The translations under genes and the position numbers were made by a program. A DNA stretch of 64,000 nt, taken from contig OX453285.1 of the NCBI GenBank assembly GCA_949710005.1, positions 23,918,502-23,982,501 on the forward strand, read 5' to 3'. This stretch comes from Ricordea florida (lineage: Eukaryota; Cnidaria; Anthozoa; Corallimorpharia; Ricordeidae). Shown piece by piece: positions 21,429 to 52,772 of the stretch. Below the pieces are notes generated by a model. It worked only from the letters and a program-made list of their open reading frames with translations, was not told the origin of the DNA and made no database searches. Position 1 is the first letter of the stretch. Every line of letters begins with the position of its first letter.

Positions 21429-21458
21429 TCGGGCTTCGCCCTCAACGCAAAGCGGATA
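21429..21458. repeat. Double triloop-hairpin micro-insert (A, intergenic)
   Basis: A 30-bp GC-rich segment absent from the otherwise matching element B sequence (near 23866). It holds GGGC-TTC-GCCC (21431-21441) and CGC-AAA-GCG (21446-21454), with ATA repeated at both borders. Confidence 0.8.
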
Positions 21459-21484
21459 ATGGTTACATAACAAAAATAAGTAAT

Positions 21485-21553
21485 TTATCTAAATCTTAAA
21501 CTAAAAGTTATGGGAGAACCCATCAGATCAAGTTTTTTCCATTCAATGTCTAA
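21485..21553 (-). pseudogene. 3' end of element A penton-like gene, severed by element B
   Basis: This stretch encodes the C-terminal residues of the penton-like protein (it matches the last part of the intact copy at 23894-24529, including the terminal SLRF-type end and stop codon). The rest of the gene is at 38014-38580. Element B inserted between them and duplicated GATAG. Confidence 0.85.
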
Positions 21554-21558
21554 GATAG
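21554..21558. repeat. Target-site duplication of element B (GATAG), left copy
   Basis: GATAG borders element B on the left and recurs at 38014-38018 on the right. Both copies lie inside the interrupted gene of element A. Confidence 0.9.
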
Positions 21559-21806
21559 ACTACTATATTACCGTAAAAATAAGCCGATTTTTCTAAATTT
21601 TTATTAAATTTTTTTAAAGTTTACGGTGAGATTTTAGACCAATTTTACTAGTAGTTTATGTATTTATGAATGTATGTATTTAAAAAAAATTTGATTTTAA
21701 AACCGGCTTATTTTTGAAAAGATGAATTTAATATTTTATTAACTTTTACAAAAAATGAATTATTGTTTAAAGATTTACAAAAATTTTTATTAAATATGGA
21801 ACAAGA
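21559..21806. repeat. Element B left TIR (248 bp)
   Basis: Identical to the reverse complement of 37766-38013. It runs from ACTACTATATTACCG to a few codons inside the first gene. It contains its own inverted pair, AAAAATAAGCCG and CGGCTTATTTTT, about 125 bp apart, and ACCGT/ACGGT, so each terminus can fold. Confidence 0.97.
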
Positions 21807-22239
21807 GGTGAAAGATTTACATTTTCAACAATTAAAAAATATTGCAAAAGAGTTGAAAATAAAAGGAAGAACAAAAATGAATAAAGAAAATTTAATTAAA
21901 AGTATTAAAAAATTTTCAGAGGAGGAAATCATTAATGAAATTAAAAAAGATGGTATTAATAATAAATATTATTGTATCCATAAAAAGTGCAAATATTTTT
22001 GTAAAGAATGTTGTGGGTCACAATTATGTATACATAATAAAATTAAATATTGTTGTAAAGAATGTAAAGGATCAAAATTTTGTAAACACAACATACAAAA
22101 AACACATTGTAAAGAATGTGGAGGATCTCAAATATGTGAACATGATAGACAGAGAACACATTGTAAAGAGTGTGGAGGATCCCAAATATGCGAACATAGA
22201 AAACAGAAGGCACATTGTAAAGAATGTCGAAAAAAATGA
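21796..22239 (+). CDS. SAP-like protein with tandem C-x-H zinc repeats (element B)
   Basis: 147 residues from the MEQEVKDL start; an upstream in-frame ATG at 21763 exists, but the same upstream codons precede the polymerase in the other TIR, so they are probably untranslated leader. A single SAP-like segment (residues about 8-40) is followed by about five C-x-H-x6-C-x2-C units (CKHNIQKTHCKECGGSQICEH pattern). Homologue of 20093-20653. TTTAAAGATT stands about 30 bp upstream inside the TIR. Probably a DNA-binding regulator; this is inference. Confidence 0.8.
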   Translation: MEQEVKDLHFQQLKNIAKELKIKGRTKMNKENLIKSIKKFSEEEIINEIKKDGINNKYYCIHKKCKYFCKECCGSQLCIHNKIKYCCKECKGSKFCKHNIQKTHCKECGGSQICEHDRQRTHCKECGGSQICEHRKQKAHCKECRKK

Positions 22240-22280
22240 ATTATTATTTAAATATATAAAATAAAATATAAAAAGTAATT

Positions 22281-22880
22281 ATGGAAATAATGATATATAG
22301 AGGATATACGGAAGGATTAACCTTTAATGAATATATTAACAATGGTATGCTTAGATTTAAGTATTTTAATGAAAAAAGATTGGGTATTTATGATTTTTTA
22401 AAGTCGATTGAGAAAGATGTGTTAAAAAATATATCAAAAAATCGAAGTTTTATTATTGAAGATGAAGAAGAAAATGTGGATTATAAATCTAGAGTTTTTT
22501 TTCGCATTTGTTGTTTTGGAAAGAATAATGAAGAAATTTTTTATGAGGATTTTGGTTTTCAATATATAATAGATTTGGATTTTGATAAGGGTTTTTTATT
22601 AATTGATGATTTTATTAGGTTTGTGGACGAAAAAGTGTATTATGAAGCAGGTCCTATTGATTATGATGGTGATATTGGAAATAATATTATTGGCTACACT
22701 TTTGATTCAATTTATATTATATTATTCACAAACCCATATAAAGTATTACATAAAAAAATTTTTTACAATGACCTACATGATGATTTAATAGTTAAAGCAT
22801 GGCGACCAGATAGGTATTTAGATTGGTGCGTTGATATAGAGGAGTTAAAGTTTTTAAAAAAGTTTTGGGGAGAAGATTAA
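22281..22880 (+). CDS. Acidic accessory protein, paralogue 1 (element B)
   Basis: 199 residues of the same family as 20716-21384: N-terminal LGIYDFLKSIEKDVLKNIS, acidic centre, C-terminal HKKIFYNDLH...RYLDWCVDIEE. TGAATTATTATTTAAATATA lies directly upstream, beginning at the stop codon of the preceding gene. Function unknown. With its neighbour it looks like a recent tandem duplication within the accessory block. Confidence 0.75.
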   Translation: MEIMIYRGYTEGLTFNEYINNGMLRFKYFNEKRLGIYDFLKSIEKDVLKNISKNRSFIIEDEEENVDYKSRVFFRICCFGKNNEEIFYEDFGFQYIIDLDFDKGFLLIDDFIRFVDEKVYYEAGPIDYDGDIGNNIIGYTFDSIYIILFTNPYKVLHKKIFYNDLHDDLIVKAWRPDRYLDWCVDIEELKFLKKFWGED

Positions 22881-22934
22881 ATTATATAACAAAAAAATGA
22901 ATTATGATTTAAATATTTAAAATAAAATATAAAA

Positions 22935-23486
22935 ATGAATATAAATAAAAAGATTGAGTTTAAATATCTTAATGAAAAAGAACTAGGTGTTCATGATTTT
23001 ATGGAATCAATCAAGAAAGATTTGTTAAAAAAGATCTCAAGAACTCTTGATTTTATTGATAAAAATAATGAGGAAATTTATTTTGAAGTTTCGTATATTA
23101 ATAAGAATAATAATGAAATTTATTTTAATTTTTCTTATGATGTAAAGAATTTTTTCGAGAATGGGATGTTTAATGATAAGTTTATTAATGATATGATATA
23201 CTATGTAAATAGAGAAGAAAACTATGATTATGATTATGATATGGAATTATTTTATGATTATGAAGATGATGATGAACAGATGGAATATAATATTAATAAT
23301 TTTATTATTGATTCGTTTGAAGCCGCGATAAAAATAGATGTTTATAAGTTAAAACATAAAAAGAAATTCTACAAAAAATTACATGATGGAATAGTTGATT
23401 TAGCATGGCACCAAAAAAGATTTTTAGATTGGTGTCTTGATTTTGAGGAGTCAAGGGATTTGAAAGAACTTTTGGGAAAAAATTAA
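22935..23486 (+). CDS. Acidic accessory protein, paralogue 2 (element B)
   Basis: 183 residues. Same framework as the previous gene (LGVHDFMESIKKDLLKKIS; HKKKFYKKLH; RFLDWCLDFEE), with the acidic Y/D-rich centre diverged. It is preceded by TGAATTATGATTTAAATATT, an individual promoter-like box. Function unknown. Confidence 0.75.
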   Translation: MNINKKIEFKYLNEKELGVHDFMESIKKDLLKKISRTLDFIDKNNEEIYFEVSYINKNNNEIYFNFSYDVKNFFENGMFNDKFINDMIYYVNREENYDYDYDMELFYDYEDDDEQMEYNINNFIIDSFEAAIKIDVYKLKHKKKFYKKLHDGIVDLAWHQKRFLDWCLDFEESRDLKELLGKN

Positions 23487-23529
23487 AAAATGAATTATTA
23501 TTTAAATATATAAAATAAAATAAAAAATA

Positions 23530-23820
23530 ATGAATAAAGAAGATCAACAATATAAAATTATTAAATATAGTAAAAAGGATTTAATAGATCAGTTAAAAAA
23601 AAATGGAATAAAAGATATTAATTATATTGCTGTTAATAATGTATTAAATAAATTGAATAAAAAATATGGAGGAGATAAAGTAACTACATTAGAAGAACTT
23701 CAAGAAGATATGAAAAAACAAAGGGATAAAGCAGCTAAGTCATATGGAATAGAAAACGATCCTAATATAAGCGATGAAGAAATGTTGAAAAAATTATTTG
23801 GGGAAATGATGAAAAGATAA
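23530..23820 (+). CDS. Small accessory protein of unknown function (element B)
   Basis: 96 residues, lysine-rich, predicted mostly helical (KKDLIDQLKKNGIKD; LEELQEDMKKQRDKAAKSYG). It carries its own TGAATTATTATTTAAATATA box starting just after the previous stop codon. No homologue is seen in element A. It is the last rightward gene before the convergent virion block. Confidence 0.6.
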   Translation: MNKEDQQYKIIKYSKKDLIDQLKKNGIKDINYIAVNNVLNKLNKKYGGDKVTTLEELQEDMKKQRDKAAKSYGIENDPNISDEEMLKKLFGEMMKR

Positions 23821-23893
23821 ATAAATAAAAGATGCAGTATATTAGAAATAATTATGTTATATAACCTAAATAATGGTTACATAACAAAAAAAT

Positions 23894-24529
23894 TTATCTA
23901 AATCTTAAACTAAAAGTTATAGGAGAACCCTTAAGATCAAGTTTTTTCCATTCATTGTCTAATATGCTTAAATCAAAGTGGTTTATAACGCTATCATATT
24001 TTCTAATTGGAATTGTTGGATAATCCTTTGAGGGTATGTTTGCAAGTAGGGTTGATGGTGAGAGTTTCACAGGTTCTCCATATTTTGTTTTATTCATATA
24101 TGAAGACTTATTATCAACTATACTACACATAAGTCTAAATGGCCCCTTAATTTGTATATTTATAGGGTATAATATACCAGGATTTATATTTTCGGGCACC
24201 CCTAAACCAATAGACAAAGCTCTACTAAGTTTAACTTTGAAATTCTTATTTGAATATAGATAGTCAACAGTATCAGTCTCAATTATTGTTATCTTTTCCC
24301 TAGTCGGATCATTAAAAAAGATCGAATTAATATTACGAAGAGAATATGTACCCGGTTCAATTATTATGAAGCCAATCTTATTATCATTTTCTATTATCTG
24401 CCGATCCTTGAAATTAATCAATCTTTTATTTTTAATATTACAATCTAGTAGTTGCATCTCACTAATATTTTTAAGCGGAGGCTCTAAATAAATCCTTGTT
24501 TCAGGCTCATACATGGTAATGCTAAACAT
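23894..24529 (-). CDS. Penton-like / minor capsid protein candidate (element B)
   Basis: 211 residues, rich in predicted beta-strand, with a terminal GSPITFSLRFR. Size, strand content and place in the virion block fit the single-jelly-roll minor capsid (penton) protein that Mavericks encode, but I cannot see diagnostic residues. The element A homologue is split at 38014-38580 and 21485-21553. TTTAAAGATG stands about 25 bp upstream of the start. It is the last gene of the leftward virion cluster and converges on the accessory block. Confidence 0.5.
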   Translation of the reverse strand: MFSITMYEPETRIYLEPPLKNISEMQLLDCNIKNKRLINFKDRQIIENDNKIGFIIIEPGTYSLRNINSIFFNDPTREKITIIETDTVDYLYSNKNFKVKLSRALSIGLGVPENINPGILYPINIQIKGPFRLMCSIVDNKSSYMNKTKYGEPVKLSPSTLLANIPSKDYPTIPIRKYDSVINHFDLSILDNEWKKLDLKGSPITFSLRFR

Positions 24530-24770
24530 TTTTTTGTTTGGTTACTTTATATTCATCTTTAAACCGGCTGCGCCGTAATTTGCATTGACGTAATCACATT
24601 CCTGAGCGACGTTAGAAACGAGCCTTTTAAAAGTAAACATAAAATCTACTTTTCAATTTCAAAACCACTTTACGTTTTGCTTGTTGCTATGTCGCAAAAG
24701 TATGCAATCTATTGTTCTACACGTGAACACTAATTTGTAAACAATTATAATCACGTGAAATACTCATGAA
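24530..24770. promoter_or_regulatory. Conserved intergenic island with CRE-like and E-box sites (element B)
   Basis: This non-coding stretch upstream of the penton-like gene is strongly conserved with 38581-38804 of element A. Conserved sites are TGACGTAATCA (24596-24606, CRE/ATF-like), CACGTG (24720-24725) and CACGTG (24752-24757), plus GAGCGACGTTAGAAAC. CACGTG and TGACGTAA are known host transcription-factor sites; use of them by the element is inference. A 15-bp hairpin insert (24564-24578) directly abuts the TTTAAAGATG box. Confidence 0.6.
24564..24578. repeat. Triloop-hairpin micro-insert (B, promoter)
   Basis: CCGGCTGCGCCGTAA contains CGGC-TGC-GCCG. The aligned element A sequence lacks these 15 bp. 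It is nearly the same as part of the insert at 46519-46530 (CGGC-TGG-GCCG then TAA). Confidence 0.75.
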
Positions 24771-26324
24771 CTACCGAAATAGATACCACGCTAATCCACC
24801 AGCTAAAATTATAAATGCTAATATATTCTTTTCATGTTGTGTTGAGTCCTGTTTCATTGAGTCTGTTTTTATTGAGATTTTTGGTTCCTGCGGGGTTTTA
24901 TTCGTTTCATTTACACCTTTCAGGAGAATATGAGGTAACTTTATCTTTGAAGATCCTAAGTTATGACTTATTCCAACTTGTTTTACTTCAGTGTTTATGG
25001 AATTATTCACACCAAAATTCATATCATTACTAGCTTTCATAAGTTTGTTGTTAAAACCTGTCACGCTTTCAGTATTGATTATCATATTACTCGGCATCAA
25101 CCACACACCAGGAGCAATAGCAACATCAAGCCGTAATTTCGCTTCTTGAACAGCTAATTGATACCTTTGGATAGAACTAGAAATATCATTCTCGATCACA
25201 CTACTTTCAAATAAAGCCAAGAATTCTTGTTGTGTCTCAATCGCGCCACCACCATTACCATAAATCGAGTTTCTAGTGTTAACTTGTGCTCCCAATATAC
25301 AATAGACAAAAGCTTCAGCAGATCGATTTAATCTACCAAGTCCAGCTTTAGTGAGCCCATGTCCACTTGTAGGGATAAACCAAGAATATTTGAAATCAGC
25401 AAAGTCGTCATTGCGTATAAATGAAATTAGATTACCCTTTTCTTTCTTTCCACCTTCATCAGCGAATTTATTTCCTTCACCAGGCCATTGATCTGCTTCA
25501 ACATCATAATTCCTTACAATATGTACATTTTGGTATCCCCCACCTCTTCCATGATATCCTGAACCATAATCAAGGAATATATCACCCAATCCTCCATTTC
25601 TTCCTCCTTTCCATCTAAAATCGGAATTATTACTAATCCCAAATTCAGCGCACAATCTTTGATATGCAACTTTACTATATGGATTATTATTTATCACAAA
25701 AGGCTGCTCATCAGGCAAAGGTAGTTTCAATTCATATAATATCCTCCTTATTGTGAAATATATATGAAACTTAATAAAGCTATTTACTACTTTGGGATAA
25801 TTTAGGCTTTCAAAAGGACTTATCCCACAACCAGATGTTGCACACCAAACTGCAAAGTTAAGTTGTTGAGGCCAATAATTCATATCAGGAGCATTCAACC
25901 ATTTTCTACTCTGCTTTCCAAATTTGAAAGTAACTACTTGATTGGTAAAAACATTACGCATTTTTGCTGTGAATTTCTTCGTATTTGAAACGTATATATC
26001 TAGATCGGTTAGCATTTTTGTTATATCAGTTGAAAAGTCATCAAAATTAACAGCTGGTATTGGATAAGATCTATTTGTTAATGTTAAACTTTCAGGAAAT
26101 GAACTAAATTCTTCACCATTTACCCCCAAATCTTCCCACAAAAGTCTTTTCATATTAGGCGATATATCATCAGTCCATGTTTTCCCAGTAGGATCATCCT
26201 TTGTCATTACAGTTATACCATTATATTTCCACTTAATATATCCTCCATACGAATCAGACACAAATGTAAATTTATCAAGATTAGCACTTGGGTACCTATT
26301 TTTGAAATCATTTAATAATGACAT
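24771..26324 (-). CDS. Large virion-block protein with C-terminal membrane anchor (element B)
   Basis: 517 residues from MSLLNDFKNRYP; the longer frame adds 23 residues with no counterpart in element A, so I prefer this start. The C-terminus has a single hydrophobic helix (LAFIILAGGLAWYLF). Conserved internal blocks include WCATSGCGISPFESLNYPKV and SAEAFVYCILGAQVNTRNS, shared almost unchanged with the broken element A copy (38805-39424 plus 44847-45794). I do not recognise the fold. Its place in the virion cluster and its membrane anchor suggest an internal or vertex protein of a membrane-containing particle; this is inference. Confidence 0.7.
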   Translation of the reverse strand: MSLLNDFKNRYPSANLDKFTFVSDSYGGYIKWKYNGITVMTKDDPTGKTWTDDISPNMKRLLWEDLGVNGEEFSSFPESLTLTNRSYPIPAVNFDDFSTDITKMLTDLDIYVSNTKKFTAKMRNVFTNQVVTFKFGKQSRKWLNAPDMNYWPQQLNFAVWCATSGCGISPFESLNYPKVVNSFIKFHIYFTIRRILYELKLPLPDEQPFVINNNPYSKVAYQRLCAEFGISNNSDFRWKGGRNGGLGDIFLDYGSGYHGRGGGYQNVHIVRNYDVEADQWPGEGNKFADEGGKKEKGNLISFIRNDDFADFKYSWFIPTSGHGLTKAGLGRLNRSAEAFVYCILGAQVNTRNSIYGNGGGAIETQQEFLALFESSVIENDISSSIQRYQLAVQEAKLRLDVAIAPGVWLMPSNMIINTESVTGFNNKLMKASNDMNFGVNNSINTEVKQVGISHNLGSSKIKLPHILLKGVNETNKTPQEPKISIKTDSMKQDSTQHEKNILAFIILAGGLAWYLFR

Positions 26325-26427
26325 TTTATTCCTTGTGTTTAGAATAAGATGTAAAGCCTTTAAAACATTTCTTTTCGATAACCAGCAAAACAATTAAATC
26401 CTACATCAGTTCTCTCATATGAAATTT

Positions 26428-27024
26428 TCAGCGATCTCGACTTACCAATTCCTTTAATATTTCCTCTCGAACCTCTGTTCTTATCTGATTCATATTTAAG
26501 TTTTTTTCTGTATCTTTCCTGGTTTTTTGGCGGATTTCCATTTTTAGTTTTTCAAACTTGTCAACCTCTGATAAAATTAGAGAAAATTCTTGGTCTGATA
26601 TTGCATTATCTTTCAGTGCCTTTGAAACCAAGTCTTGAATGGTGTTTACTTTTGCTTTTGCTAGAGAAACTGTCTGTTCATGTTTACTAACTTTATGAAA
26701 AAGTCTTTTTGAAGCAACGCCACATCCAACCGATATTCCCCCAAAAATACCTCCAACCGTTCCTAATGGTATACCAACAATAGCACCAAAACCAGTAAGG
26801 GAGGTTCCAAGCCCGCTTGCTGATAGAATAACAGAAAACACTCCACTACAAACACTTATTTTTGTAAATATACTTCTAGCTCGATTATACTTTTTCCTAA
26901 CATCCTCATAATGTTTAATTTCCTTTTGAAGATTATTTAGTACTTCACAGGACTTTTGTAGTCTGAAATTATTTGGATCACCATCAATAGGTAATTGCGG
27001 ATAAATTCCCTTGTAATCATCCAT
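26428..27024 (-). CDS. Small virion-block protein with glycine-rich membrane region (element B)
   Basis: 198 residues. A short helix (CEVLNNLQKEIKHYEDVRKK) precedes a hydrophobic, Gly/Ser-rich region at about 53-103 (SVILSASGLGTSLTGFGAIV and GIPLGTVGGIFGGISVGCGV), compatible with two membrane helices, followed by a charged coiled-coil C-terminal half. AATCTTTAAA lies at 27049-27058, i.e. TTTAAAGATT in gene sense, about 25-35 bp upstream. Close homologue at 45923-46552. Function unknown. Confidence 0.7.
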   Translation of the reverse strand: MDDYKGIYPQLPIDGDPNNFRLQKSCEVLNNLQKEIKHYEDVRKKYNRARSIFTKISVCSGVFSVILSASGLGTSLTGFGAIVGIPLGTVGGIFGGISVGCGVASKRLFHKVSKHEQTVSLAKAKVNTIQDLVSKALKDNAISDQEFSLILSEVDKFEKLKMEIRQKTRKDTEKNLNMNQIRTEVREEILKELVSRDR

Positions 27025-27062
27025 ATTGTATTTTACTGATCAACAAGAAATCTTTAAATTTG

Positions 27063-28358
27063 TTACTTTCTCTTTTTTACACTTGTTCCTCCTTTTAGTC
27101 GGTCCACAAAATATAGAACCACTGCCATTATCAACAACCAAGCATTCTTACCTAAAAAGCTAATAACCTCACCCGCCGTTTTGAATAGAAAGCTTACAAT
27201 TGCTCCAACCATCCCTGGTAATATTTCACTGAGTTTCTTACCAATAGCTTTCAAACCATTTCCAACACCTTTACCTAATGTGGATAAACCTCTAGAAAGA
27301 TTAGAAACTATAACACCAATTACTACCCCTACAGCACTAATAACAGAAAATACTGTAAAACCATACTTTTTGAAGATAGCCTTCACACGTTCTCGTAATG
27401 GTAGATTTTTAAGTATTTCTTCATTTTGTCTCTCAATCTCAGATATTTTTTCTTGGTTGTAAATAATACTCTTTCTTGATAGTTCTCTAAATTTATCAAC
27501 TTCGGCTTGTAATCTTTCATTACTACGTTCTAACATTGGTAAATTTGACTGGCCTTTCTTATATTTGTCTATTTCATCTTTGTATTCATTCATTTTGTTC
27601 AAAAGTTTATTTTTTTGCATTTTTAGTTCTATATTTTGTTCAACGGTTTTATCGAAAAGTCTTTTACCTTCCTCCGCATCTCTTAACATCCCTTCTTTTT
27701 CTTCCTTTTGGCTATCAATTACTAACTGAAGTCTTCTTTCTTTTTCCACATATTTACTAATCTCCATGGGATATACTTTTGTGGTTGCTTCCAATCCTTG
27801 TAATGAATTAAGTAATTCAATATTTTTTTGATTAACTTTATTTAATTTAGATATAAGATTATTATTTTTTTTAAGCATGGTTTCATAATCAACACCTAGA
27901 GCTTTTTTGATTGTATCAGGAAGTTCATCATTCAATTTTCCTCTTTTTAATAATGAGTAAGATTTTGCTCCTTTCCTATCCAATTTTATTTTTAATAGCC
28001 CATATTCATCATACCAATGTAAAAATTTAGAAGTATCTGCATCAGGAAAATATGATTTAATATCATCTCCAGATTCATCTTGATTTTTTTCACGTTCGCT
28101 AAAAATAGTTTTTGGTGATTTAGGTCTTGCCCCCTCATTCTCATAATTCCTATCACCAAACGATGTTTTTTCTATACGTTTTATAGGTTTTGGGGTGGGT
28201 CTTTCCTTTTCATCATCTTTGGTTGTAGATGTTACTCGAACTGGTATTTTTGATGGTTTTCTACCAAGTAGTGGATTATCTTCATCATAATCATCAGGAT
28301 CTTCTTCTTCCCCCAATCCAATGGGATCATCGCCTGGTACTTCTGGTAATGTTGCCAT
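27063..28358 (-). CDS. Coiled-coil membrane virion-block protein (element B)
   Basis: 431 residues. Very acidic N-terminus (about 1-30), a proline/charged linker carrying the peptide EGARPK, a long coiled coil (about 155-320), and a C-terminal hydrophobic third (about 330-425: FTVFSVISAVGVVIGVIVSN; NAWLLIMAVVLYFV). The C-terminal third is almost identical to element A's 344-residue homologue, while the coiled coil differs in length and sequence. This suggests a membrane-anchored spacer or scaffold; function unknown. A TCTAAAGATT variant of the shared box lies about 25 bp upstream. Confidence 0.7.
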   Translation of the reverse strand: MATLPEVPGDDPIGLGEEEDPDDYDEDNPLLGRKPSKIPVRVTSTTKDDEKERPTPKPIKRIEKTSFGDRNYENEGARPKSPKTIFSEREKNQDESGDDIKSYFPDADTSKFLHWYDEYGLLKIKLDRKGAKSYSLLKRGKLNDELPDTIKKALGVDYETMLKKNNNLISKLNKVNQKNIELLNSLQGLEATTKVYPMEISKYVEKERRLQLVIDSQKEEKEGMLRDAEEGKRLFDKTVEQNIELKMQKNKLLNKMNEYKDEIDKYKKGQSNLPMLERSNERLQAEVDKFRELSRKSIIYNQEKISEIERQNEEILKNLPLRERVKAIFKKYGFTVFSVISAVGVVIGVIVSNLSRGLSTLGKGVGNGLKAIGKKLSEILPGMVGAIVSFLFKTAGEVISFLGKNAWLLIMAVVLYFVDRLKGGTSVKKRK

Positions 28359-28438
28359 GATTTTTTACTCATCAGTAAGAAATCTTTAGACCTAAAGTTA
28401 TTTTGAAAATTATTTAAATAAAAAATAAAATATAAAAA

Positions 28439-28625
28439 ATGGAAATAAAAGATATTACTGGACATATTAGTTTTAATAACATAATAAAAATGTTTAATGA
28501 AGAAATAATTACAAAAAATCTAACTTATAATTTAAAAGATAAAGATCAAAAAAAAATTACTTAAATTAATTATAAATGACGATAAAAAAAGAAAATTAAT
28601 AAAAATTATTTTAGATAGTATTTAA
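28439..28625 (+). pseudogene. Small frameshifted rightward ORF in the leftward cluster (element B)
   Basis: A 41-codon frame (28439-28564) begins after AATTATTTAAAT and AAAATAAAATATAAAAA, the promoter type of the rightward accessory genes. It stops shortly after a run of nine A (28548-28556). A second frame of similar composition continues from the run to a stop at 28623-28625, so a one-base length change in the run probably broke the gene, or is a sequencing error. Element A has only about 50 bp between the equivalent neighbours and lacks this gene. Confidence 0.5.
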
Positions 28626-28653
28626 TTATAAAACAATTAATGTTTTTATAATT

Positions 28654-29046: not shown

Positions 29047-29048
29047 AA

Positions 29049-44846: not shown

Positions 44847-45794
44847 CCATGCATATCTGTAATCACCAAAGACATCATTACGAATAAATGAAATTAATTT
44901 AACGTGATTATAGTCTGCGTCCTTTTTAAAAAATTTTTGTAATCCTTTAGCAACAGTTTTTTCTCTCTCAGTTAGGTCATCTGAAAATTTATTATCACCA
45001 CCAGGATATTGGCTTTCTTTGGGTGAACTTTCATCGTATTTATAAAATATATCTCCCAATCCATTGTTTGTTCCAATTTTAAACCTAAAATCTTCTGTAT
45101 TACTAATTCCAAACTCTTTACACAAACGTTGATATGCTACTTTACTATATGGATTATTGTTTATTACAAATGGTTGCTCATCGGGTAGGGGAAGGCTTAA
45201 TTCATATAATATCCGCCTTATTGTAAAATATATATGAAACTTAATGAAGCTATTCACTACTTTGGGATAATTTAGACTTTCAAAAGGACTAATCCCACAA
45301 CCAGATGTTGCACACCAAACTGCAAAGTTAAGTTGCTGAGGCCAGTAATTGAAATCTTGTGAGTTCAACCATTTCTTGCTTTGTTTTCCAGATTTGAAAG
45401 TTACAATTTGATTTGTAAATATGTTTCTCATTGGAGCTGTGAATTTTTTTGTATTTGAAACATATATATCTAGTGAGGTTAGCATTTTTGTTATGTTACT
45501 TGTAAAGTCGTCAAAGTTAATAGCCGGTATAGGATAACTTTGGTTAGTCATGGTTAAACTCTTTGGGAATGAACTCAGGTTAATCGATTCACTCAAGCCT
45601 AAATCTTGCCATAATAATGTTTTCAAATTATTAGAAAGACTATCAGTCCATGTTTTTCCAGTAGGATCATCATTAGACATGACAGTCATCTCATTATATT
45701 TCCACTTAATATATCCTCCAAATGAATCATTCACAAATGTAAATTTATCAAGACTAGCTTTTGGGTATCTATTTTTGAAATTCTCGAATAACAT
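44847..45794 (-). pseudogene. Large membrane-anchored virion gene of element A, 5' part
   Basis: N-terminal part of the homologue of 24771-26324 (MLFENFKNRYPKASLDKFTF; WCATSGCGISPFESLNYPKV). The frame runs into the DIRS-type element at its downstream end. The start agrees with the MSLLNDF start chosen for element B's copy. A CTTTAGATC variant of the upstream box lies near 45823. Confidence 0.85.
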
Positions 45795-45922
45795 CTTATT
45801 CTTTGTGTTTCAATGAGTCTGGTCTTTAGATCTAGAATAAGATGTAAATTATTATCAATTAATTTCTTTTCTGATACCTGCAAAACAATTACAACCCACA
45901 TCAGTTCTTTCATATGATATTT

Positions 45923-46552
45923 TTAATGAGCGGGAGTGGTTAACTCTTTTAATAGATCTGCACGAACTTCTCTTCTTATCTGTGACATGTTTAAGTTTTT
46001 TTCTGTATCTCTCCTAAATTTTTGGCGAACTTCAAGTTTTAGTTTTTGAAACTTTTCCAACTCTGCTAAAATTATAGAAAATTCTTGATCAGATATAACA
46101 TTATCTTTCAATGCCTTTGAAACCAAGTCGTTAATGGTGTTTAATTTTGACTTTGCTATGGAAACAGTCTGTTCGTGTTTACTAACTTTATTTGAAAGTC
46201 TTTTTGATGCTGCACCAAATCCAACAGATACTCCACCACAAATTCCGCCTACAACACCCAACGGAACACCAATAATAGCTCCAAAACCGGTAAGAGAAGT
46301 TCCCAACCCGCTTGCAGATAGAATAACAGAAATTACTCCACTACAAACACTGATTTTTGTAAATATTCCTCTTGCTCTATTATATTTTTTCCTCACATCT
46401 TCATAATGTTTAATTTCTTTCTCAAGATTTTGTAATACTTCACTTGATTTTTGTAGTCTGAAATTGACTGGATCTGGATTATTAGGCAATCCAGGGTAAA
46501 TCGAGTTTCGCTCGGGACCGGCTGGGCCGTAAATTCTATTGTAGTCTTCCAT
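45923..46552 (-). CDS. Small virion-block protein with glycine-rich membrane region (element A)
   Basis: 209 residues, homologue of 26428-27024 with the same layout: helix, Gly-rich hydrophobic region (SVILSASGLGTSLTGFGAII), charged coiled coil. The N-terminus carries about 11 extra residues (GPAGPERNSIY region) encoded by a GC-rich hairpin insert at 46500-46532. ATATCTTTAAA near 46577-46587 is the upstream box. Function unknown. Confidence 0.75.
   Translation of the reverse strand: MEDYNRIYGPAGPERNSIYPGLPNNPDPVNFRLQKSSEVLQNLEKEIKHYEDVRKKYNRARGIFTKISVCSGVISVILSASGLGTSLTGFGAIIGVPLGVVGGICGGVSVGFGAASKRLSNKVSKHEQTVSIAKSKLNTINDLVSKALKDNVISDQEFSIILAELEKFQKLKLEVRQKFRRDTEKNLNMSQIRREVRADLLKELTTPAH
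46500..46532. repeat. Hairpin micro-insert inside a CDS (A)
   Basis: CGAG-TTTCG-CTCG (46502-46514) followed by CGGC-TGG-GCCG (46519-46529). It is in frame and absent from element B's copy. Its second half matches the insert at 24564-24578. Confidence 0.75.
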
Positions 46553-46590
46553 ATTGTATTTTACTACTCAACATGATATCTTTAAATTTG

Positions 46591-47625
46591 TTACTTGCTT
46601 CGCGGCCCAGAGGGTCTCTTCTTTATGTTTTCAACAAAATACAAAACCACAGCCATTATCAAAAGCCAAGCATTCTTACCTAAAAATCCAATAACCTCGC
46701 CTGCTGTTTTGAATAGAAAGCTAACTATTGCACCAACCATTCCAGGCAATATTTCACCCAGTTTCTTACCAATAGCTTTCAACCCATTACCAACACCTTT
46801 CCCCAATGTTGATAACCCTTTAGAAAGATTAGAAACTATAACACCAATTACTACACCTACAGCACTCAAAACTGCAAAGGCTGTGAAACCATACTTTTTG
46901 AAGATGTGCTTCACACGATCACGTAATGACATATTTTGAATTACCTCTTCTTGCTCACGCTCAATGTTATCTAACTCATTATCATACTCAACAACTTTTC
47001 TCTCTCTAGTTTTAATTTCATTAAGTTCTTCTGGAGTATTCATCGGTTGATTTTTTAATTCTTCTATCCTATCATTCTCCCTCCTTTTTAATTCTTCTAT
47101 CTTTTCTTTCTCACGATCATTAACTTCAACAATTTCCCCAGCTGTGGGACCTAAAGCTTCTCTAATTTTTTTAGGCAATTTTTTGTTCACATCGCCATAA
47201 GAATCTGAAAAATAATACCATTTTAATTTTTTTGGATCTTTTTTAGAGATTGCAACTTCAATTTTACCCCATTCATTGAATTTGAAAAGAAAATTAGGTT
47301 TGGCCCTTGGGCACATTTTTAAAATATTATCCCAAGCTTCATCTTTGTTTCTTTCAATCTCCCCCATTTCCATCTCTTCACTTGGTAATTGTGTATATCC
47401 TGATTTGGTTTTATATCTAGCACCCCCCTTAGTCGTGGATGTTTCTCTTACTTTTTTTGGTGAGGGCATTCTACCAGTTAGTGGATCATTTTCATCAAAA
47501 TCATCAGGATCTTCTTGTTCGTTTTTTTCGCCCAACCCGAAAGGATCGTCATCATCATCATAATCATTATCATCATCATCTCCTTTTTGTAAATCCTCTA
47601 ATGGTATATCTCCTGCTTCTGCCAT
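46591..47625 (-). CDS. Coiled-coil membrane virion-block protein (element A)
   Basis: 344 residues, homologue of 27063-28358. Acidic N-terminus (DDDDNDYDDDDDPFGLG), shorter and divergent coiled coil (about 155-225), and a C-terminal hydrophobic third almost identical to B's (SAVGVVIGVIVSNLSKGLST; NAWLLIMAVVLYFV). The last residues (RPSGPRSK) come from a GC-rich hairpin insert (46597-46618). AATCTTTAAA at 47648-47657 is the upstream box. Function unknown. Confidence 0.7.
   Translation of the reverse strand: MAEAGDIPLEDLQKGDDDDNDYDDDDDPFGLGEKNEQEDPDDFDENDPLTGRMPSPKKVRETSTTKGGARYKTKSGYTQLPSEEMEMGEIERNKDEAWDNILKMCPRAKPNFLFKFNEWGKIEVAISKKDPKKLKWYYFSDSYGDVNKKLPKKIREALGPTAGEIVEVNDREKEKIEELKRRENDRIEELKNQPMNTPEELNEIKTRERKVVEYDNELDNIEREQEEVIQNMSLRDRVKHIFKKYGFTAFAVLSAVGVVIGVIVSNLSKGLSTLGKGVGNGLKAIGKKLGEILPGMVGAIVSFLFKTAGEVIGFLGKNAWLLIMAVVLYFVENIKKRPSGPRSK
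46597..46618. repeat. Double triloop-hairpin micro-insert at a CDS end (A)
   Basis: GC-TTC-GC and CCC-AGA-GGG (46606-46614). Same family as 29615-29636 and 48677-48698 (shared GCTYC...GG...AGGGTYTC), but read in a different frame. Confidence 0.7.
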
Positions 47626-47675
47626 GATTTTTTACTCATCAGTAAGAAATCTTTAAACTAATCATATACGATAAC

Positions 47676-48068
47676 CTAAAATAACTTACTTGCTGCATAA
47701 CCTATCGCCAACATTCCTCCGCCCACATATGCCATTTCACCCGTCTTTTGATTTTCACTGGGTCTATAATAATCAGAGAATTTTGGTTCATGCATTTGGC
47801 TATACAATTTCAAAGCTTGATCTGTATTCGAAATATTTTTTGTGGCTTGGTATTTATCATCTTTTTTCTTCATTTTCCAATCAATTAGTTTCTGTCTTTT
47901 TTCCTGATATTCAGCATAATCTTTTTGATATTTTTCTAATGCTTTATCGTGTCTTATTTTCTCTGTATCTGTTTTATCACCTGAGAGATATTTTGCAAGA
48001 TATGATCCGCCAACAAATGTTGTTGCATTCAAAATAGCTCCTCCAATCATCATTGCTATTGTTGCCAT
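47676..48068 (-). CDS. Small two-helix membrane protein (element A)
   Basis: 130 residues from MATIAMM, matching the start and length of 28654-29046; the longer frame would begin inside a hairpin insert. Hydrophobic helices at both ends, charged coiled coil between. Nearly identical to B's copy. Likely a virion membrane protein. Confidence 0.75.
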   Translation of the reverse strand: MATIAMMIGGAILNATTFVGGSYLAKYLSGDKTDTEKIRHDKALEKYQKDYAEYQEKRQKLIDWKMKKKDDKYQATKNISNTDQALKLYSQMHEPKFSDYYRPSENQKTGEMAYVGGGMLAIGYAASKLF

Positions 48069-48072
48069 GTTT

Positions 48073-48127
48073 CTTCGCTTCACTCAGGTCTATAAACCAG
48101 CTTTGCTGGACCGGCGAAGCCGATAAA
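48073..48127. repeat. Double triloop-hairpin micro-insert (A, intergenic)
   Basis: CCAGC-TTT-GCTGG (48097-48109) and CGGC-GAA-GCCG (48112-48122); CTTCGC at 48073-48078 can also pair with GCGAAG at 48114-48119 as an alternative outer stem. Absent from the same gap in element B. It separates the 130-residue gene from the usual upstream sequence. Confidence 0.8.
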
Positions 48128-48130
48128 TCC

Positions 48131-48349
48131 TTAATTTGGTAAAATCTTTTGGTCCTCTAAATATGTTTTTAGGTACATACTACCCGATAATACAGCGACC
48201 CATTTTGCATAATTTGTAATACTTGAGGATGGATCGTTCATAAATGATTCTTTCATTGCTTTTTTAGCTACATATCCAACTCCAGCCGCTAATCCGATAA
48301 GGACTGCAGAATCAGTAACAGTTTTCACAAGTTTATTTTCGTTTGACAT
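48131..48349 (-). CDS. 72-residue membrane protein (element A)
   Basis: Nearly identical to 29049-29267 (SAVLIGLAAGVGYVAKKAM; WVAVLSGSMYLKTYLEDQ). Two hydrophobic segments. A TTTAAAAGTT variant of the upstream box lies about 25 bp before the start. Function unknown. Confidence 0.75.
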   Translation of the reverse strand: MSNENKLVKTVTDSAVLIGLAAGVGYVAKKAMKESFMNDPSSSITNYAKWVAVLSGSMYLKTYLEDQKILPN

Positions 48350-48416
48350 GATTTTTTACTACATCAGTAAGAAACTTTTAAATGACTTTATGTAGTAAAA
48401 AAAAAATAATTAGTAA

Positions 48417-48887
48417 TTACATCATTCCAATTTTTGGACGATCTAGGGGCGGTGCTTGAGTATTTGTTTGTGGATTATGAATCTTTATGGGTGGGGCTTG
48501 AAAAGGTTGTGGTATTTGAGGAACTTGAGATAAATCAGGTATTCTGTTTTTATAATATCTCATAAACATATCAAATGCTGTAAAACCTATTCCAACAATT
48601 GATAATACTGTTGTAAAAGATAGTTCCGGTATCCACGCTTTCGATTCATTATTTGTCTTTTCTATATTTTCATTTTGCTCCTCGGCTCGTAGGGTCTCTT
48701 CTTCCCTTTTAATTTGCTCTTCACGTTTCATTTCCCTGGCTAATGCATCTTTTGCTTTTTTATTATATTCAGCTAATTTCTTACCAGCTGCTACTTTTTT
48801 AGGATCTTTTTCCCGTTTTTTAGTATCTTTATTTTCTGGTTTGGGATCAGCTGTAATTTGTTCAACTTGTTCATTTTGTTCAGACAT
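48417..48887 (-). CDS. Basic/acidic virion-block protein with one membrane helix (element A)
   Basis: 156 residues from MSEQNEQ, the start matching element B's copy. Charged first half, membrane helix (FTTVLSIVGIGFTAFDMFM), P/Q-rich tail ending IGMM. A GC-rich insert at 48677-48698 encodes ETLRAEEQ. Homologue of 29313-29783. Function unknown. Confidence 0.7.
   Translation of the reverse strand: MSEQNEQVEQITADPKPENKDTKKREKDPKKVAAGKKLAEYNKKAKDALAREMKREEQIKREEETLRAEEQNENIEKTNNESKAWIPELSFTTVLSIVGIGFTAFDMFMRYYKNRIPDLSQVPQIPQPFQAPPIKIHNPQTNTQAPPLDRPKIGMM
48677..48698. repeat. GC-rich micro-insert inside a CDS (A), family member
   Basis: GCTCCTCGGC...TAGGGTCTC. Related to 29615-29636 but placed at a different position of the homologous protein, showing that these segments move. 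Confidence 0.65.
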
Positions 48888-48955
48888 TATTTTACATATC
48901 ATTAAGAAATCTTTAGACCACTTAGGAATGATATGTAAATAAAATAATAGTATGC

Positions 48956-49525
48956 TCAGTAAACAGTATCAGTACCAACAGCATCTTGCTTAGTAGTCTG
49001 CTCAGTTTTGTTAGAATCATCTGTATTAGTACTTGTAACTTGCTGTATTTTTCCTATTTTAACATGCTTAGCAACCTGAAATATACCGCTAGCAAGTGCT
49101 GTCAGTCTTCCTGCTTTCAATGCTAAGAGGCCTACAATGTTTGCCAGTTCACGATTAACCAAATCATCATTCTTCAAATCAGAACAAAGAGCTTCTATAT
49201 CATCAACCGGAACTAAATATGAAATAAGTTTGGAAACTAATTGAAGGGATGAATCAACCAATCCACCGTTAATTTTTTTACCCATTACCGCTTGATATCG
49301 ATTAAAATATTTTTCTACATCTTTTTCTGATAATTTTTTTATATCACCCAAACTCATTTCAACTCCTAAATATTCCTTTGTGGTTCCAAGAGCTGCTAGA
49401 ATTGCTAGTGATTCTTGTTTTATTTCAAGTTCATTATCATCATTATCTTTTCCCGATCCTCCCTGCGGTCGGTCTGTTTTTCCTACAGTCTTTTCTTCTT
49501 CAATGTAATCTTCAACGTTTGTCAT
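48956..49525 (-). CDS. Helical virion-block protein of unknown function (element A)
   Basis: 189 residues, homologue of 29810-30340. About 11 extra residues near the N-terminus (KTDRPQGGSGK) come from a GC-rich stretch at about 49453-49475 that element B lacks. Otherwise collinear; T/N/Q-rich tail. No catalytic motif visible. Confidence 0.65.
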   Translation of the reverse strand: MTNVEDYIEEEKTVGKTDRPQGGSGKDNDDNELEIKQESLAILAALGTTKEYLGVEMSLGDIKKLSEKDVEKYFNRYQAVMGKKINGGLVDSSLQLVSKLISYLVPVDDIEALCSDLKNDDLVNRELANIVGLLALKAGRLTALASGIFQVAKHVKIGKIQQVTSTNTDDSNKTEQTTKQDAVGTDTVY

Positions 49526-49551
49526 CTTTTATGGTGATAAATTTACTATTT

Positions 49552-50178
49552 TTAAATCACTTCAGGAATCTCTAAATAGCAATTAAATGGGTGTCTTAAA
49601 GATAAACACAGTCTAGAATATTTTTCAGTTTTCAGGAGTTTAACAAGCTTTTTACTAGTTTCATAATCCATATCTCCTCCATAATCTTCAAAAAACATCT
49701 TCATACCTTTCTGCGACGGATTATGAAATGAGACCACACAAGCCACATTTTCACGGAATGGTTTTGCTATGGATGTTAATTGCTGAGTGAGAACCCAAAC
49801 TGATAATCCGTGATGTCTTCCAGAGAACGCTAAATCTATAAATTTATTGGATCGTTTCTTCAGATCACCCGAAACAGCACAATCATCTAAAATTATTAAT
49901 GTATTTGTTCCAGAGAATAAAGTTTGACAATCAGTTAATAACTCATTAATCTCATCAATGTTACTAGCATCTGGTGATAATACAAAGAAACGTTTATCTC
50001 CTCGAGCAAAATTATGATAAGTTTTATTCTTAGAATAAGTTGGGCATATTAAAACAATGTAATCAAAAATTTTTCGGAATGGCCCTCTTAGCTGATTGAT
50101 GAGGTACTTTGTTTTTCCACAATTTGTTGGGCCGGTTATGATACAATGGAATGGTATTTTTTCTCGTAGTTCTTCCAT
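49552..50178 (-). CDS. DNA-packaging ATPase, FtsK/HerA superfamily, A32-like (element A)
   Basis: 208 residues from MEELREKIPF, matching element B's copy in start and length. Walker A GPTNCGKTK, Walker B TLIILDDC and TQQ all present. Intact. About 85-90% identical to 30365-30991 by eye. Confidence 0.92.
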   Translation of the reverse strand: MEELREKIPFHCIITGPTNCGKTKYLINQLRGPFRKIFDYIVLICPTYSKNKTYHNFARGDKRFFVLSPDASNIDEINELLTDCQTLFSGTNTLIILDDCAVSGDLKKRSNKFIDLAFSGRHHGLSVWVLTQQLTSIAKPFRENVACVVSFHNPSQKGMKMFFEDYGGDMDYETSKKLVKLLKTEKYSRLCLSLRHPFNCYLEIPEVI

Positions 50179-50219
50179 TATTTTTTGTATCATAACTAAA
50201 GTTTTTTAAATCTATTCAG

Positions 50220-51458
50220 TTAGTACTTTATTGATTTTAAACCTGAATTCATAATCTCCATCATTGCATCAGCTACAACAAACATATGACAGGTTATAGT
50301 ACCAGATCCACTTTGTTTCCTTTTAATTTCTAGTTTTACACCATCTTGTGTATTGTTTAATGCTAGACCACCTCCATGAATACCATTATCGGGGTGAGTT
50401 CTCATATCAACCCAAAGAGCAAACTTATCGGCATAAAAATCTTTTTCCTTTACTGAATGTTTACCTTCAGTCAGCCTGAAACGTTTCTTTACCGACTCCC
50501 ACAGATCTGATGGTATCATTCCCTTAGAGTATAATCGATTTGGAACACCATCAACATCTATATTAATCGAGGTTATACCTGGATTGTAAAAATTCTCAGA
50601 GTTACGTGCTCCTGCTGCGAATGGTAATGTAAACAAACATAATATCCCAGTCATTGATCTTCTAGGTAGATTAATATGCTGATTTATAACACCATCACCA
50701 CCTATGGAAAAGGTAAAAGTTTTATGGAGAGTTACATTTTCATAAAAAAACCCTTTGCCGACTTGATAAGCTGCTTGTGCCTCACGAGCCAAGTATTCAC
50801 TTGAAATGGAAGAATATTCTAACTCAAGGTTTTTGATTGAATAAGATGGAGTCTTAGTAGTGTCAGAATAAACAACAATATCATTAATTGGAGCAAGTGT
50901 AATCTCAAATATTAGATGATGATCTAGAGCTTTTGGGTAAAAAACTCCATGATCGTTTAGAATAGGATGGTTTAGTGGTATACGATACTTGGTGTTATGT
51001 ACTGATGCAAGAGTCACTGCCTTAACATCTTGTGTTTTCTTATCACCCGCATTTGTCCTTAGCTTTCTCATGTTTTCAGAAGAAATACCTTGTTTTAATC
51101 TATCTTCGCGTTCTTCATCTGTTAAGAATAAGTCATGATAGGTTTGAAAAAGATCATATCTTTGAGTATCCTGTAATGTTTCACCACCAAAAAGAACTCT
51201 AAGTCTAGATACAAGATTACTACCTACATTATTAACGAGTGTATTATTAGCATGACCATCTACATCTAAATCAAATAATAGAGATACGCTTCCAGGCACA
51301 ATCACTAAATTCTCAGAAAGTTTTGGAATATTTATATATAATGTTTCCCCGGGGCTAGCAGATGATGGATTTAGAGTAATTCGGTTCATTGTTGATTCCG
51401 CTTTCAAACCAAATGGCTCACGAGGAATTCTGTTTGGATTAATTTTTTCAGACGTCAT
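50220..51458 (-). CDS. Major capsid protein, double-jelly-roll type (element A)
   Basis: 412 residues, collinear homologue of 31004-32245 (GSNLVSRLRVLFGGETLQDT; YDLFQTYHDLFLTDEERED). Open, full length. AATCTTTAAA at 51483-51492 is the upstream box. Unlike in element B, a small extra gene lies between it and the integrase. Confidence 0.8.
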   Translation of the reverse strand: MTSEKINPNRIPREPFGLKAESTMNRITLNPSSASPGETLYINIPKLSENLVIVPGSVSLLFDLDVDGHANNTLVNNVGSNLVSRLRVLFGGETLQDTQRYDLFQTYHDLFLTDEEREDRLKQGISSENMRKLRTNAGDKKTQDVKAVTLASVHNTKYRIPLNHPILNDHGVFYPKALDHHLIFEITLAPINDIVVYSDTTKTPSYSIKNLELEYSSISSEYLAREAQAAYQVGKGFFYENVTLHKTFTFSIGGDGVINQHINLPRRSMTGILCLFTLPFAAGARNSENFYNPGITSINIDVDGVPNRLYSKGMIPSDLWESVKKRFRLTEGKHSVKEKDFYADKFALWVDMRTHPDNGIHGGGLALNNTQDGVKLEIKRKQSGSGTITCHMFVVADAMMEIMNSGLKSIKY

Positions 51459-51494
51459 TGTAATTTATAAGATACTTTGGTTAATCTTTAAACC

Positions 51495-51689
51495 TCATAG
51501 GCATCTTAATTGGTATTTTTTATTATCTAATTCTTCAATATATTTTACTAAACTTTCTCTTACTCCTTCAATTACAAGCATAAGATTGAAAAGTTCATCG
51601 CCATCTTCCATATTGTGAATTTTTGAAATTATAATTTTTTTCATCATATTAATTTGGTAATCGCTAAAATTTATTTTTTCTTCCTCCAT
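51495..51689 (-). CDS. Element A-specific 64-residue protein
   Basis: Short acidic, helical protein (MEEEKINFSDYQINMMKKII; IEELDNKKYQLRCL). Its upstream region copies that of the capsid gene (CTTTGGTTAATC and TTATAA motifs recur), as if the promoter were duplicated with an inserted gene. No counterpart in element B. Function unknown. Confidence 0.55.
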   Translation of the reverse strand: MEEEKINFSDYQINMMKKIIISKIHNMEDGDELFNLMLVIEGVRESLVKYIEELDNKKYQLRCL

Positions 51690-51722
51690 TATAATTTATA
51701 AGTTACTTTGGTTAATCCTTAA

Positions 51723-52772
51723 ATGAGTAACGAAAAGATATCGAAAATATCGGTGAAGCCGGGCTCGCTCTTAGAGCGGATATATTATTCAACTGAAGGA
51801 TATTGGAAAGGATATTCCGCAATCTCCAAATTAGCACAAAAAGCAAATCAGGCAAAGCCTTCCCACGAAGTGAAAGTAAGTGAAGATGTAGCAAAACAAT
51901 GGTTAGAGAAACAAGCAATATGGCAAATATATCTTCCAGCTCCAAAGTATATACCTAAGCCGCACTGGACGGTGGATAAACCAAATCAGATTCATCAAGC
52001 AGATTTATTATTTTTACCTCATGATATAGTTGGAAGAAAAACATATAAATACGCATTAGTTGTGGTTGATGTGGCAAGTAGATACAAAGATGCTGAAGCA
52101 TTAACCTCAAAAGAAAGTCGAGAGATATCCAAAGCTTTTACAAAAATATATTCTAGAAGATTGAAATACCCTAAATCATTAATGGTTGATCCTGGAAAAG
52201 AATTTATGGGTGAAGTTAGTAAACTCATGAATTACCATAATGTGAAAATACAAAGAAGTGAAGCTGGAAATCACAGAGCTCAAGCATTTGTAGAAAGAGC
52301 AAATAGGACATTAAGTGAAAAATTATTTAGTCATCAATATGCGCAGGAAATGATAAGCGATGATCGATCTAGAGTATGGGTAAAACGATTACCTGATATT
52401 TTGAAAACATTGAACAATACACCGACGAGAATAACCGGTAAAGAACCTGATAAAGCTATAAAAATGAAAGAGGTGAATATTGAAACTAAAAGATATCACC
52501 TAGTTGTTGGTCTTGATGAGGAAAGATTATCTCCTTTTGTTAGAGTTAGATATTTATTATCTCAGGGCGAGATTGAGGGTGGAGAAAAAAGGCGAGCTAC
52601 AGATCCTATTTGGAGTATCAAAGTATATGATATTTCTAGAAGCGTTATTTCACCCAATCAGCCAGTTTTGTATTATTTAGTAGATGGACCGAGACGGGGG
52701 TTTGTAAGGGAAGAATTACAGGTTATTCCTTATGATACTGAACTTCCACCCAATTCTGTTTTGAGACTATAA
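51723..52772 (+). CDS. Maverick integrase, rve (DDE) family (element A)
   Basis: 349 residues. Same catalytic layout as 32280-33287: HQADLL, MVDPGKEF and FVERAN with D-35-E spacing, and a C-terminal beta domain (QPVLYYLVDGPRRGFVREEL). Two short N-terminal insertions relative to B (VKPGSLLE and NQAKPSHEV regions) are encoded by GC-rich hairpin segments at 51751-51780 and 51847-51873. The 3' end overlaps the convergent polymerase frame by 43 bp. Confidence 0.93.
   Translation: MSNEKISKISVKPGSLLERIYYSTEGYWKGYSAISKLAQKANQAKPSHEVKVSEDVAKQWLEKQAIWQIYLPAPKYIPKPHWTVDKPNQIHQADLLFLPHDIVGRKTYKYALVVVDVASRYKDAEALTSKESREISKAFTKIYSRRLKYPKSLMVDPGKEFMGEVSKLMNYHNVKIQRSEAGNHRAQAFVERANRTLSEKLFSHQYAQEMISDDRSRVWVKRLPDILKTLNNTPTRITGKEPDKAIKMKEVNIETKRYHLVVGLDEERLSPFVRVRYLLSQGEIEGGEKRRATDPIWSIKVYDISRSVISPNQPVLYYLVDGPRRGFVREELQVIPYDTELPPNSVLRL
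51751..51780. repeat. Double hairpin micro-insert inside integrase (A)
   Basis: AGCC-G-GGCT (51757-51765) followed by CGCTC-TTA-GAGCG (51766-51778). In frame; missing from element B's integrase. Confidence 0.8.
51847..51873. repeat. Triloop-hairpin micro-insert inside integrase (A)
   Basis: AGGC-AAA-GCCT (51850-51860). About 27 bp in frame, missing from element B's integrase. Confidence 0.7.

Follow-up and report, generated by a model that had tools for sequence, protein, structure and literature searches.

The 64,000-nucleotide stretch of Ricordea florida analyzed here (contig OX453285.1, positions 23,918,502 to 23,982,501; hereafter the window, in whose numbering all coordinates are given) carries two related, nested proviruses of Maverick/adintovirus type, an outer element B and an inner element A, the label "adintovirus" being one that we take over from an earlier note on this DNA. 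Scattered through both are short GC-rich inserts, in their typical form 26 to 30 nt long and made of two adjacent hairpins with 3-nt loops. We describe these inserts in the window and across the genome, where they very probably represent a family of mobile elements.

Results

Two nested proviruses with GC-rich inserts

Element B ends in 305-nt inverted repeats (97% complementary) flanked by a 5-bp duplication, ACTGC, at 19662-19666 and 57281-57285, and encodes an A32-type ATPase, an rve integrase, and a capsid protein scoring barely above the Pfam cut-off. Element A ends in 260-nt inverted repeats (98% complementary) with a GATAG duplication at 21554-21558 and 38014-38018, both duplications having been recognized by eye, and encodes an rve integrase and an A32-type ATPase. 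Alignment of A with B in 12 slightly overlapping pieces gives 79.8% identity across 9073 columns.

In well-aligned genes, the segment missing from A or B is in many cases GC-rich and holds stems with 3-nt loops (Table 1); the nine such stems listed in the earlier note all lie where it had placed them. Its observation that these segments are present in one provirus and missing at the same place in the other holds at several sites; at 29513 and 38894 there is no clean indel between A and B. The hairpins at 29513 form a perfect family member all the same, and at the place of 38894 a perfect member is present in another copy of the virus (L031). The pair at 46597-46614, also listed as an indel, is a clean 18-nt one when B is compared with a third copy but not when it is compared with A; in other copies (L032 and L172), a 30-nt element occupies the GAA loop of a pair of this kind. 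The insert at 21428 corresponds to 30 nt missing at the same place in A, the alignment setting the gap at 21426-21455. At 51751 the site is empty in A and in L022 (A/B gap 51748-51777, 30 nt in that placement), and at 51847 it lacks 27 nt in A (gap 51845-51871) and is empty in many other copies. Location in frame within viral genes, which the note had claimed for many inserts, is seen for the one near the integrase start, the insert at 21428 being intergenic. GC-poor gaps are also numerous in the A/B alignment, one fast-evolving gene holding many of them. Taken by itself, the window has modestly more GC-rich triloop stems than shuffles (5 versus 2.1 in A; 5 versus 1.8 in the right part of B), an excess insufficient to carry the case, and the fixed architecture of the family is only partly visible in the two window copies.

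Table 1. Proviruses, inserts, and empty sites in the window
Feature	Position	Strand	Remarks
Element B, Maverick/adintovirus-type provirus	19667..57280		Split by element A and a retroelement
Element A, related provirus	21559..38013		Nested in B
Double-hairpin insert in B, intergenic	21428..21457	+	ATC GGGC-TTC-GCCC TCA ACGC-AAA-GCGG AT; one worn pair in second stem
Single-hairpin insert in A, 15 nt	24562..24576		CGGC-TGC-GCCG; missing at same place in B
Canonical element in A, within open reading frame (ORF) 29313-29783	29512..29539	-	Minus-strand reading ATC GGAC-GGA-GTCC TCC CCGC-GAA-GCGG; found by ATC/TCC frame scan
GC-rich segment in A, 18-nt gap	33002-33019		From A/B alignment
Hairpin-bearing segment in B, near end of virion ORF	38888..38920		Canonical element here in L031
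Empty target site in B	45934..45935		30-nt element at junction in L031; same flanks, B 30 nt shorter
33-nt insert in B, within ORF 45923-46552	46496..46528		Two hairpins, second CGGC-TGG-GCCG; missing in A and L031
18-nt hairpin pair in B	46597..46614		Missing in L035
60-nt insert in B	48070..48129		CCAGC-TTT-GCTGG and CGGC-GAA-GCCG; missing in A
33-nt GC-rich insert in B, within ORF 48956-49525	49451..49483		No clean triloop pair; missing in A
Second-subfamily element in B, in frame near integrase start	51751..51779	+	CGGT-GAA-GCCG GGC TCGCTC-TTA-GAGCGG between ATAT repeats
Element with 3-bp second stem in B integrase	51847..51872	+	ATC AGGC-AAA-GCCT TCC CAC-GAA-GTG

A fixed architecture with paired stems

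The canonical element of 30 nt consists of ATC, a first stem of 4 (rarely 5) bp closed by a 3-nt loop, the spacer TCC, and a second stem of 5 bp also closed by a 3-nt loop; with second stems of 4 or 3 bp, the length drops to 28 or 26 nt. The third base of the first loop is A in 29/29 canonical variants. A second subfamily, found at the integrase start, has 29 nt and the order CGGC-NNN-GCCG, GGC, and a 6-bp hairpin between ATAT repeats. Among 33 sequences (178,631 bases), 25 GC-rich double hairpins of at least 9 bp were counted, compared with 0 in one shuffle set; 24 have loops of 3 nt and one a loop of 5, and the spacers of the 24 measure 3 nt in 13, 4 nt in 7, and 0 to 2 nt in 4. The strict scanner detected double hairpins in all five further copies read over 10 kb, one of the two in L035 being AT-rich and doubtful. 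Several hairpins listed in the earlier note, namely, those at 24565, 46597, and 38894, are single, worn, or different units, which likely belong to the family.

Pairing of the stems is largely conserved. In the 29 canonical variants (26 of the 44 distinct sampled 30-mers plus three from other copies), 98.9% of cells pair, a share that leans upward because nearly all variants were chosen as belonging to the 5-bp class, and pairs changed on both sides number 5 versus 2.3 in shuffles. The genome pattern ATCGNGCNNAGCNCTCCCCNGCNNNGCNGG sets no condition on the free stem pairs. In 100 of its listed matches, the free pair of the first stem is G-C in 58, A-T in 38, G-T in 2, and mismatched in 2, and that of the second stem is G-C in 54, A-T in 41, G-T in 4, and mismatched in 1; counting G-T as a pair, the free letters pair in 98 and 99 of the 100, and pairing is therefore kept even where the pattern makes no demand. 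For the second subfamily (17 variants, 16 from the integrase start and one from a second place), 94.1% of cells pair, and 22 cells are changed on both sides versus 8.5 in shuffles. In the second stem of the element at 51751-51779, three adjacent base pairs change together between variants; apart from one single mismatch, none of the 17 variants has an intermediate form, a pattern that suggests replacement or arm-to-arm copying.

Abundance in the genome and association with one virus family

The searched assembly comprises 538 Mb in 48 contigs. The integrase of B has at least 116 matches in it, B included, at 84 to 100% identity; this count is a floor, because scoring covered 116 of the 5900 first-look candidates, and A is missing from the set. 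Given this abundance and the 106 of 116 matches without a stop codon, endogenization of the virus looks recent or ongoing. Exact matches to the pattern ATCGGGCNNNGCCCTCC number 853 (reversed control, 0), those to ATCGNGCNNNGCNCTCC 1213 (reversed control, 2), and those to ATCGNGCNNAGCNCTCCCCNGCNNNGCNGG 497 (reversed control, 0). By tblastn, all 80 sampled stretches around matches encode proteins of this virus family, i.e., 40/40 around the first listed ATCGGGCNNNGCCCTCC matches on chromosome C1, 20/20 of the first listed C1 stretches with non-GGGC ATCGNGCNNNGCNCTCC matches (21 elements, one with a G-T wobble), and 20/20 of the C2 rows among the listed ATCGNGCNNAGCNCTCCCCNGCNNNGCNGG matches, which were picked by hand and not at random; some of the 80 come from the same provirus. 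The case for confinement of the elements to this virus family is strong but not complete.

Beyond this genome, the full 30-nt pattern had no match in IMG/VR, and a short-pattern scan of the same database gave no perfect element among at least 120 matching stretches; four TCC-spaced matches with one mismatch were taken as chance. Capsid and integrase profile searches of IMG/VR confirmed no relatives. Three prokaryote matches of the 30-nt pattern, at one shared place in Symbiopectobacterium, are likewise attributed to chance, their free stem letters being mostly unpaired, and no Rfam family reached its cut-off in 19600-57300. Among database relatives of the integrase (120 listed of 3145 were examined), some at ~77 to 87% identity, on ENA contigs mostly of ~8 to 17 kb, have in-frame inserts of ~9 to 11 residues; one of them, SDTR[PAKGGEGSAR]SRVW in P0013 compared with SDTRSRVW in P0006, agrees with a minus-strand element. 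In relatives at or below 76% identity, nothing but unrelated 5-residue variants, a single tandem duplication, and a single misaligned row was seen, and the invasion therefore seems limited to one clade.

Filled and empty sites, target base, and indel lengths

Evidence for movement comes from comparison of virus copies at the same place. Of 48 filled sites, 16 have a counterpart in another copy in which the same flanks enclose exactly 30 nt less (7 places by eye). In thirty integrase loci, one place may be empty, hold one element, hold another, or hold an element inside an element. In the copy L019/L031, the integrase insert has a 30-nt element in its GGA loop, a site of which 12 copies have the clean empty form, and L198 and L225 have an element lodged in the loop of a second canonical one. 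The 40 elements with a 5-bp second stem in the first two samples fall into 13 flank clusters, to which the third sample adds three places by eye (L232, L233, and L234). Elements occur in both orientations, within genes and between genes. L014 and L020 are sister copies on the integrase-core tree (support 100/99), and only L014 of the pair has the integrase-polymerase insert. On that tree, from which 4 of 31 rows (L002, L015, L024, and A) were left out for want of the anchor, the second integrase insert requires 4 changes; because many of its forks have little support and one row was scored wrongly, L020 having been entered as insert-free despite a worn copy of that insert, the tree alone cannot settle gain versus loss.

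The base that follows elements with a 5-bp second stem is A in 40/40 (the 13 clusters above) and in 20/20 of the third sample, A making up 33% of the flanks, and by eye it is also A in the classes with second stems of 4 bp (5 elements) and 3 bp (7 elements). Since the element itself begins with A, insertion before A is indistinguishable from a one-base duplication of A. Flanking duplications of the 30-nt inserts are none or one A; by eye, they are AT or AA in the shorter forms and ATAT in the second subfamily.

The earlier note had proposed looking for an excess of triloop stems in the indels of other copies, and the excess is there. Among indels of at least 12 nt between A, B, and five more copies, 40 non-overlapping GC-rich ones hold 165 bp of triloop stem versus 44.5 (standard deviation [SD], 10.7) in shuffles (z, 11.2), whereas 34 GC-poor ones show no excess (37 versus 31.6; SD, 8.5; z, 0.6); the indels are not independent, because some are common to several copies. 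Stems with loops of 5 and 7 are in excess too (z, 7.8 and 3.1), probably because the same hairpins are counted with their inner pairs open. Lengths are divisible by three in 36/40 GC-rich and 18/34 GC-poor indels, and net insert lengths at integrase sites are 27, 30, and 33 nt (by eye). Frame-keeping lengths probably reflect selection on survivors; the intergenic insert at 21426 is also of 30 nt, and length may therefore be partly intrinsic.

Other features of the window

The large ORF of B (52730-56815) likely encodes a DNA polymerase, judging from its size and place; a weak Endonuclease_7 match at its residues 599 to 636, below the cut-off, is at most a lead for the mechanism discussed below. 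A reverse-transcriptase retroelement at ~39431-44845, presumably DIRS/Ngaro-like, has an ORF with a SAP domain and direct repeats near its ends and interrupts a virion gene of B. At their left ends, B (20093-20653) and A (21763-22239) each have a small ORF for a Rho_N-type domain, which in A barely misses the cut-off, followed by repeated CKEC...ICEH motifs. Outside the proviruses lie satellite arrays at 1-8330 (unit of ~252 bp, final copy inverted) and 8770-16000 (37-bp unit, strong GC skew of ~-0.5), and, in the host flank, inverted repeats at 59561-59888 and 63593-63920 (91% complementary), which hold a 6-bp triloop palindrome of their own, TTCGCC-TTC-GGCGAA, in a layout unrelated to the virus elements.

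Discussion

Altogether, we consider it probable that the inserts are a non-autonomous family of mobile double-hairpin micro-elements that spreads, by a mechanism of the kind outlined below, in one clade of Maverick/adintovirus-type viruses abundant in this genome. The interpretation of the earlier note, namely, that the segments are mobile, is thus supported. On this reading, a new copy lands immediately 5' of an A, in either orientation, and leaves a target duplication that is very short or absent; the loop of an older hairpin has been entered more than once. Insertion would occur during extrachromosomal replication of the viral DNA, because insertions into integrated copies ought to be accompanied by insertions into host DNA. 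Viruses of this group replicate by protein-primed strand displacement. Displaced single-stranded viral DNA would let hairpins fold and leave A-containing loops open, and a structure-specific nuclease or template switching by the polymerase would copy hairpins into new A sites. This last part of the proposal, spread through single-stranded viral DNA with the help of such a nuclease or of template switching, is put forward tentatively, and we regard it as possible rather than probable.

Four other explanations were considered. The segments could be old and diverged, reshuffled by recombination among virus copies and deleted in some, with no jumping; elements at one place are indeed common to many copies, and the second integrase insert changes only four times on the tree, for what its weak forks and scoring error allow. 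We think this quite unlikely in view of the clean empty sites exactly 30 nt shorter, the nested element with its 12 clean empty copies, and the recurrence of near-identical elements at at least 13 places with a strict A as the next base. The simpler form of this idea considered in the earlier note, that the segments are ancestral and merely lost in one copy, does not agree with the segments that differ between sister copies or sit within another insert. Transcribed hairpins might instead be reverse transcribed into new places, a route that would account for the absence or shortness of site duplications, for which reverse-transcriptase elements are at hand, one of them within B, and which has been proposed for Allomyces (PMC2800124) and for yeast GC clusters (PMC4478555). 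A host reverse transcriptase should, however, hit host DNA, unless it is confined to virus factories, and every sampled stretch is viral, so that we hold an RNA route to be unlikely.

Retention for a function of the virus, such as RNA processing, linker peptides, or packaging, would place the structure under selection and agrees with the compensatory changes in the stems and with the kept frame of coding inserts. Yet close copies differ in the presence of an insert at the same place, the inserts lie in both orientations and in genic as well as intergenic DNA, and relatives at 76% identity or less are without the integrase peptides; we judge this reading very unlikely. Least credible is on-the-spot fold-back copying, in which one arm templates the other and no family of common descent exists: the block switch of three adjacent pairs in one stem at the integrase start is what it would produce, but ATC, the outline of the first stem, and the TCC spacer recur at the same 13 or more places, and the patterns score only 0 to 2 in reversed controls. 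Fold-back copying may still repair or change the arms of existing elements.

Several observations weigh against the explanation favored here and have to be set beside this evidence. In the window, GC-rich triloop stems are in excess in the host flanks as well (5 versus 0.9 and 8 versus 1.5). Worn copies in host DNA would escape our patterns, for which reason confinement to the virus is not proven. At the integrase start, pairs with change on both sides are not more frequent than in shuffles (3 versus 2.7), and there are fewer additional pair types than in shuffles (7 versus 9.4). Folding energies lie barely below those of letter-preserving shuffles (six sequences; z, -0.4 to -1.5), and 9 of 61 sampled elements have no recognizable second stem. 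For 32 of 48 filled sites, the strict test found no clean empty partner among the sequences compared, and a history of recombination among copies is possible. The preference for older loops may just reflect that stems are poor in A. Finally, insertion is deduced from filled and empty sites, and an enzyme that would move the elements is putative; the genome gave no match to the Y1 transposase model (PF01797, 0 matches), which matched in 5 of 14 control genomes.

Among known systems, the mobile family proposed here behaves like mitochondrial double-hairpin elements (DHEs), yeast GC clusters, and Volvox palindromes, a likeness that need not mean common descent. The DHEs of Allomyces were reportedly described by Paquin et al. 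(2000). Allomyces DHEs consist of two adjacent stem-loops in mitochondrial DNA and are presumed mobile, without the flanking duplications typical of DNA transposition (PMC2800124), and the comparison with them in the earlier note was apt in that our elements also have two stem-loops each; ours, unlike these, reside in an animal nuclear provirus, many in frame in protein genes, and in canonical form always have 3-nt loops and a strict ATC/TCC frame before A. Yeast mitochondrial GC clusters, the main one of 42 nt, are flanked by AG or ACT repeats (PMC4478555) and share with our elements GC-rich hairpins, copy-number variation, merging of units, and filled and empty sites; membership among them was rejected, as ours have 26 to 30 nt and are followed by A, with no AG or ACT repeat found. 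The short palindromic repeats of Volvox organelles, which have comparable 3- to 5-nt loops and palindromes inside palindromes, differ in their average length of 50 nt, their single palindromes, their TAAA or TTTA loops, and their position outside genes (PMC2670323).

In-frame palindromic inserts within protein genes are also a property of Rickettsia palindromic elements, which are bacterial, conserve the reading frame, and measure ~150 bp (PMC10969869), a length that sets our 26- to 30-nt elements apart from them. REP/BIME sequences are hairpins of 20 to 40 bp, often paired and thought to move as single strands, in which they resemble our elements, and have a GTAG tag and a Y1 (RAYT) transposase (PMC3733652); our elements were not assigned to them, since the foot of the hairpin is ATC, GTAG does not occur in the 29-variant alignment, and the genome has no Y1 match. 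The byps of Magnusiomyces mitochondria, small insert blocks at many places of protein genes like ours, break the frame and are skipped by ribosomes (PMC5009743), whereas the divisibility by three of most GC-rich indels and the stop-free integrases argue against byp membership. A miniature inverted-repeat transposable element of a cut-and-paste transposon was rejected as well, because each hairpin pairs with itself, the ends are unlike, and no fixed duplication is seen. The earlier note knew of no report of such elements in Mavericks, and our searches of the open-access literature on Mavericks, Polintons, and adintoviruses likewise turned up none.

Mobile hairpins are thus already known from organelles and bacteria, and their mode of movement is still a matter of debate in the papers cited (PMC4478555, PMC2800124). 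What makes the mechanism testable here is that there are more than 1000 copies, that sites are seen both filled and cleanly empty, that the target base is strict, and that the sampled copies all lie in one virus family. The elements may even be a two-hairpin hyperparasite of 26 to 30 nt, among the smallest mobile DNAs, confined to an endogenizing animal DNA virus; while the virus replicates, its structure would direct its copying into A-containing loops, and it could extend or replace older copies. We hold this wider picture to be a serious possibility, if somewhat short of an even one. Under it, viral proteins would gain and lose peptides of ~9 to 11 residues, and the elements would be a route by which they acquire short in-frame peptides.

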